Below are positions 2,818-23,480 of a stretch of 36,792 bases of DNA, one piece after another. The stretch covers positions 1 to 36,792 of the forward strand of contig CAJQQZ010000070.1 in NCBI GenBank assembly GCA_905480575.1. The letters are read 5' to 3'. The first letter of the stretch is position 1. Every line of letters begins with the position of its first letter. The position numbers were made by a program, and so were the translations under genes. Below the pieces are notes generated by a model. It was not told where the DNA came from. It did not search any database and worked only from the letters and a program-made list of their open reading frames with translations. This stretch comes from an uncultured Alphaproteobacteria bacterium (GTDB lineage: Bacteria > Pseudomonadota > Alphaproteobacteria > UBA7985 > CAJQQZ01).

Positions 2818-3324
2818 CTAAGCCATCCTAAGGTCTGGTTCTGCAACTTCTCGACTTTGGTTCTCTTTCCAAGTTTTTAGCGCCCATTTGGCGGTTGGGA
2901 AGGCGAGGTTGTCCCAAGGGATGTCGTCCCAATCAAAGAGAGCGACTTCCAAGGATTCAATGCCTGCTGAAAACTTGGGTTCTTTCAGAATAGAGCGGAA
3001 GAACATCTGTACTTGAGAGATATGGGTGATAGTATAAACGGCCAGCATATCACCAACTTCAATGTCGGCGTTCGCTTCTTCTATTGCTTCGCGGGCGGCT
3101 CCTTCTCGACAAGTTTCTCCCAATTCCATGAAACCAGCTGGGATCGTCCAATAGCCTGATCTTGGATCAATCGCGCGTTTGCAAAGTAAGATTTTGTCCT
3201 CATAGGAGACAACAGAACCGACGATAACCTTTGGGTTCTCGTAAGCGATAAACCCGCAATCTCGACAGACCGCGCGTTCGTGGTCATCGCCCTGGGGAAT
3301 TTTTCGTTCAAAGTTTTCTGTCAT
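2818..3324 (-). CDS. Nudix hydrolase with N-terminal CxxC zinc-ribbon-like segment
   Basis: A 168-residue Nudix hydrolase. The Nudix box runs over residues 64-86 (G64, E70, R78-E79, E82-E83), giving the divalent-metal and diphosphate site. The glycine near the end of the consensus is replaced by Asn85, a tolerated variation. The N-terminus has C20-x2-C23 followed by the ENPKVIVG motif found in a subfamily of ADP-ribose or related nucleotide-sugar pyrophosphatases. The exact substrate is not determinable. ATG 3324 is the natural start. It is the second Nudix enzyme in the window, distinct from nudC. Beyond its start lies about 210 bases before the interrupted eptA-like gene. Confidence 0.85.
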   Translation of the reverse strand: MTENFERKIPQGDDHERAVCRDCGFIAYENPKVIVGSVVSYEDKILLCKRAIDPRSGYWTIPAGFMELGETCREGAAREAIEEANADIEVGDMLAVYTITHISQVQMFFRSILKEPKFSAGIESLEVALFDWDDIPWDNLAFPTAKWALKTWKENQSREVAEPDLRMA

Positions 3325-3417
3325 AGGCAGATCCTAGCTCTTTCTTGAAAATCTCGCTAGCCCTCCTCGTTGCGACGTGGAAACTGCTGCATAAAGGAGA
3401 GAATCGTTGGATGAGCC

Positions 3418-3471
3418 TGCAGGTTGGAAAAATAGCTTGAAGAAAACCTGCAATCAAACGATTGTGCAGGT
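3418..3471. promoter_or_regulatory. Three alternating TGCAGGT/ACCTGCA motifs upstream of the eptA-like gene
   Basis: TGCAGGTT (3418-3425), AACCTGCA (3445-3452) and TGCAGGT (3465-3471) alternate in orientation. The middle copy can pair with either the first or the third, giving two mutually exclusive hairpins. They lie 65-118 bases before the eptA-like ATG. They may be operator half-sites or an RNA switch, or may be chance. Confidence 0.3.
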
Positions 3472-3535
3472 CGATTTCAAAGTGATTTTGGTTGAGAAAA
3501 TTAATTGATACTAACATTCAGAGCCAATTGAATTC

Positions 3536-3607
3536 ATGCGCTGGAATTTCCAAAGCCTAAGACTTGATGCATCGCTTGCTCGATTCGTTGTTCTTTGTTG
3601 CCTTCTA
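3536..3607 (+). pseudogene. 5' fragment of eptA-like phosphoethanolamine transferase, cut by IS630
   Basis: From ATG 3536 the frame encodes 24 residues (MRWNFQSLRLDASLARFVV and on), ending in Leu CTA at 3605-3607, whose TA is the left copy of the IS630 target duplication. If the IS and one TA are removed, the frame runs straight into ATT at 4664 and through to 6184, giving a 530-residue protein of normal EptA length. The start of the first membrane helix is therefore in this piece and the rest is beyond the IS. As it stands, translation continues into the IS and stops at 3662-3664 after 42 codons. The ribosome binding site upstream is weak. Confidence 0.85.
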
Positions 3608-3689
3608 AAGTGTTTCTGTTTTAGTTGGAATCGTTTTCTTGTTTCCTTGTGCCTCAAAGTATGATTCTTTCTGTTTGGGAGGATCTATC

Positions 3690-4076
3690 ATGCCAGCACC
3701 ATTGCCATCTGCGCTTCGGGCGCGTTTTCAGCAATACATTGAAGAAGGTTTAAGTGGGCAGGCCGCAGCGTTGCGTCTTAGGGTTTCAGCCGCTACAGGT
3801 ACTCGTTGGGCGCGCTCTGTGAGAGATAATGGAAAGGTTGAAGTCGCCCCTCAAGGACGCCCACCAGGCAAGGGAAAGCTTGCCCCTTATCAGGCCTTTT
3901 TGGAAGAGTTGATTACACAAGACCCTGATATCACACTCTTTGAATTACGGGATGCACTGGAAGATAGTGAAGGTGTTCGAGTTCATCACTCCTCCATTGC
4001 CAATCTGTTGTCCCGTCTTGGGTTTACGTATAAAAAAAGTCGCTGGTGGCCACCGAGCGCCGTCTTCCCCATGTAA
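3690..4076 (+). CDS. IS630 transposase, first frame (helix-turn-helix part)
   Basis: This 128-residue frame holds the DNA-binding N-terminal part of an IS630-family transposase: a winged-helix/homeodomain-like region with the sequence SGQAAALRLRVSAATGTRWAR, then a linker with GRPPGKG and a second helical region ending LSRLGFTYKKS. ATG 3690 has a strong GGGAGGA at 3677-3683. The frame is open upstream to 3639, but that extension looks unrelated. At the A7 run 4032-4038 the family sequence continues in the -1 frame (KSLVATERR), so the residues after about 117 in this frame are out of family register. Confidence 0.88.
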   Translation: MPAPLPSALRARFQQYIEEGLSGQAAALRLRVSAATGTRWARSVRDNGKVEVAPQGRPPGKGKLAPYQAFLEELITQDPDITLFELRDALEDSEGVRVHHSSIANLLSRLGFTYKKSRWWPPSAVFPM

Positions 4077-4648
4077 GGCGGCGGCGGGCCGATTGGTTTG
4101 CCCATCGCCTACCCGCTATTGCCGCAAGGCCTGAACGTGTTGTTTTTCTTGATGAAACAGCCGTCAAAACCAACCTTACACGCTTGCGTGGTTGGGCTGT
4201 GTGTGGACAACGCCTGCCCATGGACACTCCTTTTGGCAGTTGGGGTACGCAAACTCTCATTGCAGGTCTTGGGCATGACAAACTCATTGCTCCCTGGGTT
4301 ATCAAAGGAGCAATGGATGGCCCTGCATTCGCTGCTTATGTGCAAAAGGTGCTGATTCCCGAGATTGAACCAGGTACAGTGGTCGTGCTCGATAATCTGG
4401 CTACGCACCGAAACAAAGAGGCTACTCTGGCCTTACAAGATCATGGCTGTTGGTTCCTCTATTTGCCACCATACTCTCCTGACCTTAACCCTATCGAAAT
4501 GGCTTTCTCAAAACTCAAAGCACACCTGAGAAGAATTGGAGCAAGAACTTTTACCGAAGTCTTCAAGGCAATTGGAGATATCTGCTACATGTTCGAACCA
4601 GATGAATGTTTCAACTATTTCAAAGCCGCTGGATATCAATCAAATTAA
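4037..4648 (+). CDS. IS630 transposase, second frame (DDE catalytic part)
   Basis: This frame encodes the catalytic domain. It can be read from 4037 after a -1 shift, or from an internal GTG at 4046. The DDE triad is visible: Asp in VVFLDETAVKTN, Asp in VVVLDNLATHR, and Glu in LNPIEMAFSKLK. With the first frame fused at the A7 run (4032-4038) the product would be about 319 residues, normal for IS630 transposases. Expression through -1 ribosomal slippage or transcriptional slippage on the A-run is inferred; several IS630 members use such frameshifting. A single-base loss that inactivates the element is the alternative. The stop codon lies inside the right terminal repeat. Confidence 0.9.
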   Translation, partial: KSLVATERRLPHVRRRRADWFAHRLPAIAARPERVVFLDETAVKTNLTRLRGWAVCGQRLPMDTPFGSWGTQTLIAGLGHDKLIAPWVIKGAMDGPAFAAYVQKVLIPEIEPGTVVVLDNLATHRNKEATLALQDHGCWFLYLPPYSPDLNPIEMAFSKLKAHLRRIGARTFTEVFKAIGDICYMFEPDECFNYFKAAGYQSN

Positions 4649-4672
4649 AACCGAAATGCTTTAATTACTCTT

Positions 4673-6184
4673 TTGAACGTGTTTGTTCTGTTTCCGCAGT
4701 TGAATAAATTCGGGGAACCCAAGCTGTTCATCTTTGCGTTGTTGATGGGGACTGTTGAGAACATTGGCTTAATGTTCTGTCTTGCCTTTGCGGCTTGGAT
4801 GGTACGAGTCTGGGCTGGTGTTCTTTTCATAGTGTCAGGGATCGCCAGCTTCTTCATTAAGAACCTGGGTATTGAGATTACAAAACCGATTATTGAGTCG
4901 GTGTTTGGCACTTATCCTCAAGAAGCGGCGGACCTCATGAGCGTCGATCTCGCTGCCCATTTATTGCTGTATGCTGGAATTCCGATAGTGCTCACATTCT
5001 TTTTGAGGATCAAGAAGGAGCCGTTTCTGAAGCGATTGAAGATCTTTTTCATCACTGTCACGCTGATGATACCGTTCTATCTCGTCCCACATTTGATGGA
5101 TCCAAAGTCACTGATTTTTGCAGGAAAGAAACTGGTTGAACCCTATTTCGTGCCCACCAGTCTCTACCGAAATACCTACGGCTTTCTGAAAAAAAGGGTT
5201 TTGAAAGGCTCCATAGCTCTCGAGCAAAGGCAGAGAATCGAAGAAGTTTACGCCTTCGAGTTTGACCGACAACCAAAAGACATGACCTTTGTTTTAGTTA
5301 TTGGGGAATCTACCAGAGGGGACCACTTATCCCTCAACGGATATGAACGAACGACAACACCGAAATTAGAAAAGCGGTCGAACTTGGTAAGTTACACAGA
5401 CGCAACGTCATGTTCGGCCAGAACGATTTTTTCGGTTGCATGTCTGTTATCACACAAGACGTTGAGCACCTTCTCGATGCCGCTCAGCGATACGTCAGTC
5501 ATCTCAGTTATGAAATCTCTAGGCTTCAAAACCTACTTCATTTCCAATCATCGTAAAAAGGGACGCAGCAACTGTGAAGAGGCTGATGTCTGTTTCATGC
5601 AAGCGGAAAAAAACAAGGCGTTAGGCAATACAAAACAAGCGAAATACGACTTGGCTCTGCTTGACCTGATGGCGAGCCCAACAGAGGAGGAAGGCAACAA
5701 ATTCATTGTCCTTCACACGATCGGCAGCCATTCCAATTACAATGACCGTATCCCGGATGAGAGTTACCGAAAATTTCGGCCAACTTGTGAACGCGCATCA
5801 CTTTATCGGTGTGAAAGTGATGAGCTGGTAAACAGTTATGATAACAGCATACTTTACGTGGACACCGTTCTTGATAGTCTCATGGAGCGTCTTGAGGACA
5901 AGAATGCCTTTGTCCTTTACACCTCAGATCATGGCGAATCTTTGGGAGAGAAAGGTGTGTATCTCCACAGCAAGCCCAATTTCCTGGCACCCAGTGAACA
6001 GCGCGATATCCCGATGCTCCTTTGGAAATCAAAGGCGGCGCGGATCACTGAAGACCATGCGCAGCGGATCAAGAAGAAAACACTCGACGAGCCCGTTACT
6101 CATGACCACGTCTTTCACACTATCCTGGATTGCTCAGGCGTGAGGGGTGAGATCGTTGATAAGAAGTTGTCGCTTTGTAATTAG
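4673..6184 (+). CDS. EptA-type phosphoethanolamine transferase, N-terminus removed by IS630
   Basis: The remaining open frame (TTG 4673, 503 residues) is the main part of an EptA/Mcr-like lipid A phosphoethanolamine transferase: an inner-membrane protein with several N-terminal helices and a periplasmic alkaline-phosphatase-fold domain. Key residues are kept. The metal ligand Glu is in VIGESTRG. In SCSARTIFSVAC the nucleophile-position Thr and both flanking cysteines match Mcr C281-x3-T285-x5-C291. The Asp-His of TSDHGESLGE is present, as is the cysteine pair CERASLYRC. The usual CGTxT reads CSART. The intact gene would start at 3536 and encode 530 residues; the insertion falls in the first membrane helix. 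Whether a shortened protein is made from TTG 4673 is unknown. Its 3' end is eight bases from the pgk stop, convergent. Confidence 0.88.
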   Translation: MNVFVLFPQLNKFGEPKLFIFALLMGTVENIGLMFCLAFAAWMVRVWAGVLFIVSGIASFFIKNLGIEITKPIIESVFGTYPQEAADLMSVDLAAHLLLYAGIPIVLTFFLRIKKEPFLKRLKIFFITVTLMIPFYLVPHLMDPKSLIFAGKKLVEPYFVPTSLYRNTYGFLKKRVLKGSIALEQRQRIEEVYAFEFDRQPKDMTFVLVIGESTRGDHLSLNGYERTTTPKLEKRSNLVSYTDATSCSARTIFSVACLLSHKTLSTFSMPLSDTSVISVMKSLGFKTYFISNHRKKGRSNCEEADVCFMQAEKNKALGNTKQAKYDLALLDLMASPTEEEGNKFIVLHTIGSHSNYNDRIPDESYRKFRPTCERASLYRCESDELVNSYDNSILYVDTVLDSLMERLEDKNAFVLYTSDHGESLGEKGVYLHSKPNFLAPSEQRDIPMLLWKSKAARITEDHAQRIKKKTLDEPVTHDHVFHTILDCSGVRGEIVDKKLSLCN

Positions 6185-6192
6185 GCGAGCGG

Positions 6193-7410
6193 TTAAGCGA
6201 CTGCGGCGTCTTCTAAAGCCTTCACGCCGGGGAGGGTCTTGCCCTCAAGCCACTCCAAGAAAGCACCACCCGCTGTTGATACATAAGAGAAGTCATCATG
6301 CGCGCCGGCTTGGATGAGGGCTGAAACAGTATCGCCGCCACCGGCAACAGTGACGAGCTTTCCTTCCTTCGTCAGACGCGCCGCCTCCTGAGCGACGGCG
6401 TTGGTAGCGTAATCATATGGCTCGATTTCGAAGGCTCCGAGAGGTCCGTTCCAAACAAGGGTTTTTGCTTCGCCAATTCGACTAACCAGTTCCTCTGCCG
6501 ATTTTGGTCCTGTATCCAAAATCATCTGATCTTCTGGAACGTCGTCAATAAAAGCGGTAGATGGAGTTAGACCAGCCTCTAATCTTGTTGCCACAACAAC
6601 GTCGGTTGGCAGCATGATTTCACAGCCCTTCGCTTCGGCTTTGGCCAATATAGATTTAGCTGTCGGGATCAGATCATACTCACAAAGAGATTTACCCACG
6701 CCATAACCTTGAGCCGCAAGGAAGGTGTTAGCCATGCCACCACCAATAATGAGCGCGTCCACTTTGTCGACAAGGTTGGACAGAAGATCAAGTTTGGTTG
6801 AGACCTTTGCACCACCGACAACGGCGACGAGGGGACGCTGTGGATCGGCCAGAGCTTTACCCAAGTAGGTCAACTCGTCTTGCATCAACAAACCAGCATA
6901 GGATGGCAGTTTGGTCGTGATCGTCGACACGGTCGTGTGGGCACGGTGAGATACAGAGAAAGCATCGTTAACGTAAGCGTCTGCCAGTTCAGCCAGCTCG
7001 TTGGCGAGGCTGTCTCTCTCGGCTTCCACTTTAGACTCTTCTCGTGGGTCGAAGCGACAGTTTTCTAACAAAAGGATATCGCCGTCATTCATAGTCGCCA
7101 CGGCTGACTTAGCTTGAGCGCCTGTTAATTCTGGAACTAGGGGTACCGGTTGGCCCATTTCACGAGCAAACACCTCGGCGGTTGCAGCCAGCGTAAACTC
7201 TGGTACGACGGCGCCTTTGGGGCGGCCTTGGTGCGCCAGAATGATCGTTTTTGCTCCCGTGTCGCGCAATCGTTTCAGGCTGGGCAGTGCTCGAATAATG
7301 CGAGTCTCATCGGTGATCACTCCGTCTTTCATCGGTACGTTGACGTCGAGCCTGAGAAGGATCGTTTTGCCTTTGGGATCAAAATCGTTCAGCGTCAAAA
7401 ATGAAGACAT
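6193..7410 (-). CDS. pgk: Phosphoglycerate kinase
   Basis: Catalyses transfer of phosphate from 1,3-bisphosphoglycerate to ADP in glycolysis, reversible in gluconeogenesis; cytosolic and monomeric. Recognised by the N-terminal LLRLDVNVPMKDG and LAHQGRPKG substrate-binding motifs, the central VVGGAKVSTK, and the C-terminal nucleotide region with VWNGPLGAFE and VAGGGDTVSAL. From ATG 7410 it has 405 residues, close to the usual 390-400. The frame is open to 7440, but the first ten codons are not family sequence and ATG 7410 is preceded by AAAGG. No gap or fba gene adjoins it here. It is convergent with the truncated eptA-like gene. Confidence 0.97.
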   Translation of the reverse strand: MSSFLTLNDFDPKGKTILLRLDVNVPMKDGVITDETRIIRALPSLKRLRDTGAKTIILAHQGRPKGAVVPEFTLAATAEVFAREMGQPVPLVPELTGAQAKSAVATMNDGDILLLENCRFDPREESKVEAERDSLANELAELADAYVNDAFSVSHRAHTTVSTITTKLPSYAGLLMQDELTYLGKALADPQRPLVAVVGGAKVSTKLDLLSNLVDKVDALIIGGGMANTFLAAQGYGVGKSLCEYDLIPTAKSILAKAEAKGCEIMLPTDVVVATRLEAGLTPSTAFIDDVPEDQMILDTGPKSAEELVSRIGEAKTLVWNGPLGAFEIEPYDYATNAVAQEAARLTKEGKLVTVAGGGDTVSALIQAGAHDDFSYVSTAGGAFLEWLEGKTLPGVKALEDAAVA

Positions 7411-7577
7411 GGATTCAGCCTTTGTATCAGATATTTGCAAAGCGCGGCCTATCTCCCATAGGCGCGGCTGAAATTCAAGAAGAGTCGAACAAAGGCAACA
7501 ATGAAATTGCCGCTGTCTAGCGAAGTTTTGTCGCGATCAAGAAATTTGCAAAGGGCTTTTACGGATTATCTGGTTTT

Positions 7578-23362: not shown

Positions 23363-23456
23363 GAGGAATTGCTTTTGGGCACACTGCCCGCCAACCCGGT
23401 CAGGTCCGGAAGGAAGCAGCCGTAACGAGTTCGTGTGGGTCAGATGTCAATTCCTC
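23363..23456 (+). ncRNA. ffs: Small (4.5S-type) signal recognition particle RNA
   Basis: The conserved SRP domain IV sequence is present: GGTCAGGTCCGGAAGGAAGC (23399-23418) with the GGAA tetraloop and the asymmetric loop. The ends pair as GAGGAATTG (23363-23371) with CAATTCCTC (23448-23456), giving a 94-nt hairpin. It would bind Ffh to deliver membrane proteins to the translocon. Position just upstream of dnaX-ybaB-recR is common in alphaproteobacteria. The ends are inferred from pairing. Confidence 0.95.
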
Positions 23457-23480
23457 ACTTTACCTGCCAAAAAGTTATCC

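Follow-up and report, generated by a model that had tools for sequence, protein, structure and literature searches.

The window analysed here corresponds to a complete contig (G000:C70, 36,792 bp) from a 4.03-Mb genome assembled in 189 contigs and 99.8% complete; the genus has one other genome, an uncultured alphaproteobacterial MAG (CAJQQJ), referred to below as G001. Between a NUDIX hydrolase gene and the phosphoglycerate kinase gene lies a phosphoethanolamine-transferase gene that is split in two by an insertion sequence (IS) of the IS630 family (Table 1). When codons 1–24 (3536–3607) are joined to 4664–6184, a single frame of 530 codons plus stop is obtained, which runs from ATG 3536 to 6184. 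This reconstruction had been put forward in a preliminary description of the locus, and it is borne out both by the joined flanks and by a co-linear orthologue. The 3' fragment encodes the remaining transmembrane domain and the entire sulfatase-like catalytic domain.

An in-frame stop is found at 3512 and no other start codon occurs between it and ATG 3536, which supports this ATG as the native start. The joint falls between residues 24 and 25, within the strongest N-terminal hydrophobic segment of the rebuilt protein (residues 17–35 by hydropathy), where the preliminary description had already located the insertion in placing it in the first membrane helix.

Table 1. Coordinates of the split gene, the inserted element and the neighbouring genes in the window.
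Feature	Position	Strand	Remarks
NUDIX hydrolase gene, upstream neighbour	2818..3324	-	also adjoins the orthologue in L030 (G001)
5' fragment of phosphoethanolamine-transferase gene	3536..3607	+	codons 1–24, MRWNFQSLRLDASLARFVVLCCLL; ends inside TM helix 1
TA target duplication, left copy	3606..3607	.	sequence reading
IS630-family insertion sequence	3608..4661	+	1054 bp; co-oriented with the split gene
Left terminal inverted repeat	3608..3628	+	base 3611 is T
Transposase ORF A, helix-turn-helix domains	3690..4076	+	PF13592, PF13565; NF033545 part 2–121
A7G slip site	4032..4039	+	probable -1 frameshift, ORF A to ORF B
Transposase ORF B, DDE domain	4046..4648	+	GTG 4046 is the first start listed; the frame is open from 4034 on
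Right terminal inverted repeat	4641..4661	-	14 further assembled right ends share it exactly
TA target duplication, right copy	4662..4663	.	sequence reading
3' fragment of phosphoethanolamine-transferase gene	4664..6184	+	506 codons plus stop; no stop or frameshift inside
Phosphoglycerate kinase gene, downstream neighbour	6193..7440	-	also adjoins the orthologue in L019 (G001)

The insertion element and its copies

The assignment of the element to the IS630 family draws on its transposase, its target and its ends. In profile searches ORF B matched PF13358 (DDE_3) at 5.2e-30 and reached 125.8 bits with the IS630 transposase model NF033545, for which the cut-off is 100. The TA target is duplicated on both sides of the window copy, and TA also adjoins 26 of the 26 other ends examined in the same genome (12 left, 14 right). 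The terminal inverted repeats are imperfect, alike at 16 of 21 positions (AAGTGTTTCTGTTTTAGTTGG / AAGCATTTCGGTTTTAATTTG). The family, the TA duplications and the limits of the element (3608–4661) had all been given in the preliminary description, and they proved exact to the base.

The frame of ORF B opens directly after the TAA at 4031, at the A7G run. Frameshifting in IS630 elements is documented (PMC5009743), and two plasmid elements of Sulfitobacter and Pseudosulfitobacter (NZ_CP139710.1, NZ_CP085160.1) have the A7G slip site, the same overlapping two-frame layout and the right end AAATGCTT in common with the window element. The presence of this slip site and frame layout in the plasmid elements makes it probable that the split transposase frame reflects the frameshift arrangement usual in IS630 elements rather than decay. 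The DDE protein part of the plasmid elements is 80–81% identical to that of the window element, whereas DNA identity is approximately 69–70%, so that they represent a different IS. Viral contigs were searched for relatives and none was found; there is thus no sign of phage carriage.

The element is present in at least 15 copies in G000, counting the one in the window, and the flanks differ between copies. The others were recognised as 27 partial ends (13 left and 14 right) located at contig ends; one diverged relative is also present. The window copy is the only complete one assembled; the contigs that hold the others stop approximately 135 bp into the element. The window copy carries a private C-to-T change at the fourth position of its left inverted repeat (base 3611), where C stands in all 12 of the other left ends examined (AAGCGTTTCTGT, as against AAGTGTTTCTGT in the window), and this is the sole difference from the other copies across 282 comparable end bases. 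Such a change may weaken the mobility of the window copy. For the other copies, the assembly lacks the 780 bp of the interior, and age is judged from the 282 end bases only; with one difference among these, and with an undamaged coding sequence, the insertion appears to be young, in line with the recent disruption suggested in the preliminary description. The filled site is known from one genome. Another copy of the element splits a GMC oxidoreductase gene (L085 and L103, on contigs C88 and C20), whose joined frame comprises 551 codons, and disruption of genes by this element is therefore not unique to the locus studied here.

The orthologue in the sister genome

Among 77 related genomes, the only close homologue of the split gene is found in G001. 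Its N-terminus, MTWNFQQLRSDASNARYVVVCCLLLTVVNLVTQFPDLNKFGEP, aligns, ungapped at the junction, to MRWNFQSLRLDASLARFVVLCCLL followed by ITLLNVFVLFPQLNKFGEP in the window, and the two full-length proteins are 64% identical (530 residues for the rebuilt protein vs 531). The orthologue begins with MTWNFQQLRSDASNARYVVVCCLL (in L030), at a methionine that matches ATG 3536, which rules out TTG 4673 as the native start. A relative in which the gene continues across 3607/4664, which the preliminary description had proposed to look for, is therefore at hand, and the pattern it had set against its own reconstruction (a gene that begins at TTG 4673 in relatives, or the lack of any homologue across the junction) is not what the orthologue displays. 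The gene order NUDIX-eptA-pgk is common to the window and G001. An EamA-type transporter gene (1871–2809), located in the window between the TSUP and NUDIX genes, is missing from that place in G001 (L030).

Beyond the sister genome, similarity falls off steeply. No other full-length match was found within the order (11 genomes), the remaining hits being short, weak matches to the sulfatase motif, and a scan of genome contigs matched the G001 contig only. In a sample of the class, 22 of 385 genomes pass E 1e-40, the window's own genome included, and those aligned are approximately 27–28% identical to the window remnant; identities of same-class homologues range from 27 to 30%. The value of pN is 0.22 for the split gene and 0.13–0.20 for its neighbours. 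Having diverged at rates like those of its neighbours, the gene was constrained through most of its past, until recently; pS is saturated, and with synonymous sites in this state dN/dS is unable to date the loss.

The comparison also bears on the question of whether the assembly is correct. Given that the assembler could not cross the other copies of the element and that the only complete one lies here, a full copy might have been misplaced at this locus because the element collapsed elsewhere. This explanation is barely credible, since a TA duplication is present and the flanks join up in frame, the joined gene and the gene order match those of the sister species, and the T at 3611 is absent from every other assembled end that was examined. 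Being private and only four bases from the joint, this T speaks against a consensus gap-fill at the left junction.

Enzyme family and predicted loss of function

The remnant has the two-domain build of phosphoethanolamine transferases, an N-terminal EptA_B_N domain (PF08019, 8.8e-19, 68.3 bits vs a cut-off of 22.3) and a C-terminal sulfatase-like domain (PF00884, 6.7e-51, 173.8 bits vs a cut-off of 25), both identified by profile search. It could be aligned over 450 residues with the structures of MCR-1 (9nww, 5grr) and Neisseria EptA (5fgn), which belong to the same two-domain family and have the same active-site and metal residues but are only distantly similar in sequence. Residues E215, T254, H356, D422, H423 and H435 of the remnant are conserved with respect to 5fgn, MCR-1 and homologues; from what is known of NmEptA and MCR-1, we take the threonine to be catalytic and the Glu, Asp and three His to be zinc ligands. 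The catalytic site was accordingly found intact downstream of the insertion, as first reported, with its Glu, its Thr, the Asp-His pair and two further His.

The earlier designation as a lipid A phosphoethanolamine transferase stands as regards the family (PF08019 + PF00884), with lipid A specificity a family-level inference: the lipid A transferase model NF028537 is the best NCBIfam family, yet the 506-residue remnant reaches 331.5 bits against a cut-off of 500. LpxC was found in 11 of the 11 genomes of the order, which makes it very probable that the organism synthesises lipid A, and the former substrate was plausibly lipid A or some related glycolipid of the surface. Phosphoethanolamine transferases act on other acceptors too. 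Loss of the gene may have altered surface charge and sensitivity to peptides, provided that the enzyme acted as is usual in its family. A genome profile search found no second PF08019 gene in G000, which leaves no paralogue of this class to make up for the loss.

Taken together, it is highly probable that an IS630-family insertion made a null allele of a chromosomal phosphoethanolamine-transferase gene. The multi-copy element would have moved by cut-and-paste transposition into a TA just after codon 24, and the frame from ATG 3536 now runs into the IS. A product from TTG 4673, the first listed downstream start, would begin inside helix 1, the first of the usual five, and would be missing half of it; the product would probably be mis-inserted, with the catalytic domain on the wrong side. 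Such a shortened product is unlikely, given its start inside the helix, the lack of an obvious ribosome-binding site and the lack of a nearby sigma70-like promoter. The function of the enzyme at this locus would almost certainly have been lost.

The notion that the gene is still alive has to be weighed against this. Translation of the IS transcript from TTG 4673, or from a start further on, might yield a shortened transferase, or the element might switch the gene on and off by excising precisely. The IS and the gene are co-directional, which makes a read-through transcript from one into the other possible, and the remnant is open for 506 codons with its active site intact. Nevertheless, the stretch 3300–4900 holds no sigma70-like promoter, no clear ribosome site precedes TTG 4673, the product would start within helix 1, and the orthologue starts at the equivalent of ATG 3536; as for the switch, the T that is private to the left inverted repeat of the window copy would make excision harder, if it had any effect. 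Survival of the gene in either form is very improbable.

The preferred mechanism, insertion into the gene with loss of its product, is ordinary insertional inactivation, already known for mcr-1. In Enterobacteriaceae, mcr-1 has been inactivated by ISApl1 and ISVsa5, following earlier cases with IS10R and IS1294b (PMC7782425). The window resembles these alleles in that an IS lies within a phosphoethanolamine-transferase gene and is flanked by a target duplication. The element belongs to a different IS family, however, and whereas the mcr-1 alleles are plasmid-borne or recently acquired resistance genes whose loss of function was shown as colistin sensitivity (PMC7782425), the gene in the window is chromosomal, is common to both known species of the genus, and its loss is read from the sequence. 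The locus is a clean case of gene loss by an insertion sequence, proven with an orthologue, and it leaves the general understanding of this process unchanged.

An independent break in the orthologue

The G001 orthologue is also interrupted, at codon ~125, approximately 100 codons beyond the joint of the window, by an unrelated element. The gene is split over two contigs (L030 1429–1803 on C319 and L019 1501–2721 on C235). The first contig ends 134 bp past TTTGCTTATCT, within sequence starting GAGACCTCAG, and the second begins in sequence ending CTGAGGTCTC, followed by TATCTTTTGATTTAC. A 5-bp duplication, TATCT, flanks the break, and joining the flanks restores the frame. Each end sequence of this element recurs at ~40 or more sites in G001, and G000 has neither of them; an exact search located 50 copies of its left end in G001. 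Both sequenced species would thus have lost the gene independently, since the elements are unrelated and the sites differ.

If insertion is uniform, the chance of the G001 element hitting a 1.6-kb gene is ~50 x 1.6/3300 = 0.024, and it rises to ~0.2 if all ~450 contig breaks of G001 are counted, both figures taking the window finding as given. Dispensable genes suffer more hits than the average gene. Given the IS load, the parallel loss is suggestive and not significant (~2–20% by chance), and relaxed constraint is enough to explain it. Because a separate insertion has cost the sister species this gene as well, the gene would appear to be dispensable in the genus, in the habitat sampled. Disruption of the GMC oxidoreductase gene was considered as a control for parallel breaks in G001, but it was uninformative, the best match there being only 52% identical among several paralogues.

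Selection for loss is another way of looking at the two insertions: phages or peptides that need the decoration, or the cost of making it, might have favoured its removal in two species. The break of the G001 orthologue at another site, by a different element and with its own TATCT duplication, speaks for this proposal, but the ~50 exact left-end copies and the 450 contigs of G001 place the chance of such a hit at ~0.024 to ~0.2, and with only two species known relaxed selection explains the pattern equally well; selected loss is therefore unlikely. A recurrent, perhaps reversible, inactivation of a surface-decorating enzyme in the genus, with loss being favoured, for instance, as a defence against phages or in particle-attached life, is likewise doubtful. 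What the parallel loss in sister species does raise is the question of whether this surface modification is being discarded in the genus.

Elsewhere in the window, a bacterial small SRP RNA (RF00169, 58.3 bits) was identified at 23363–23459, directly upstream of dnaX. It overlaps the listed GTG 23433, and the true start of dnaX is for this reason probably located downstream of that codon.
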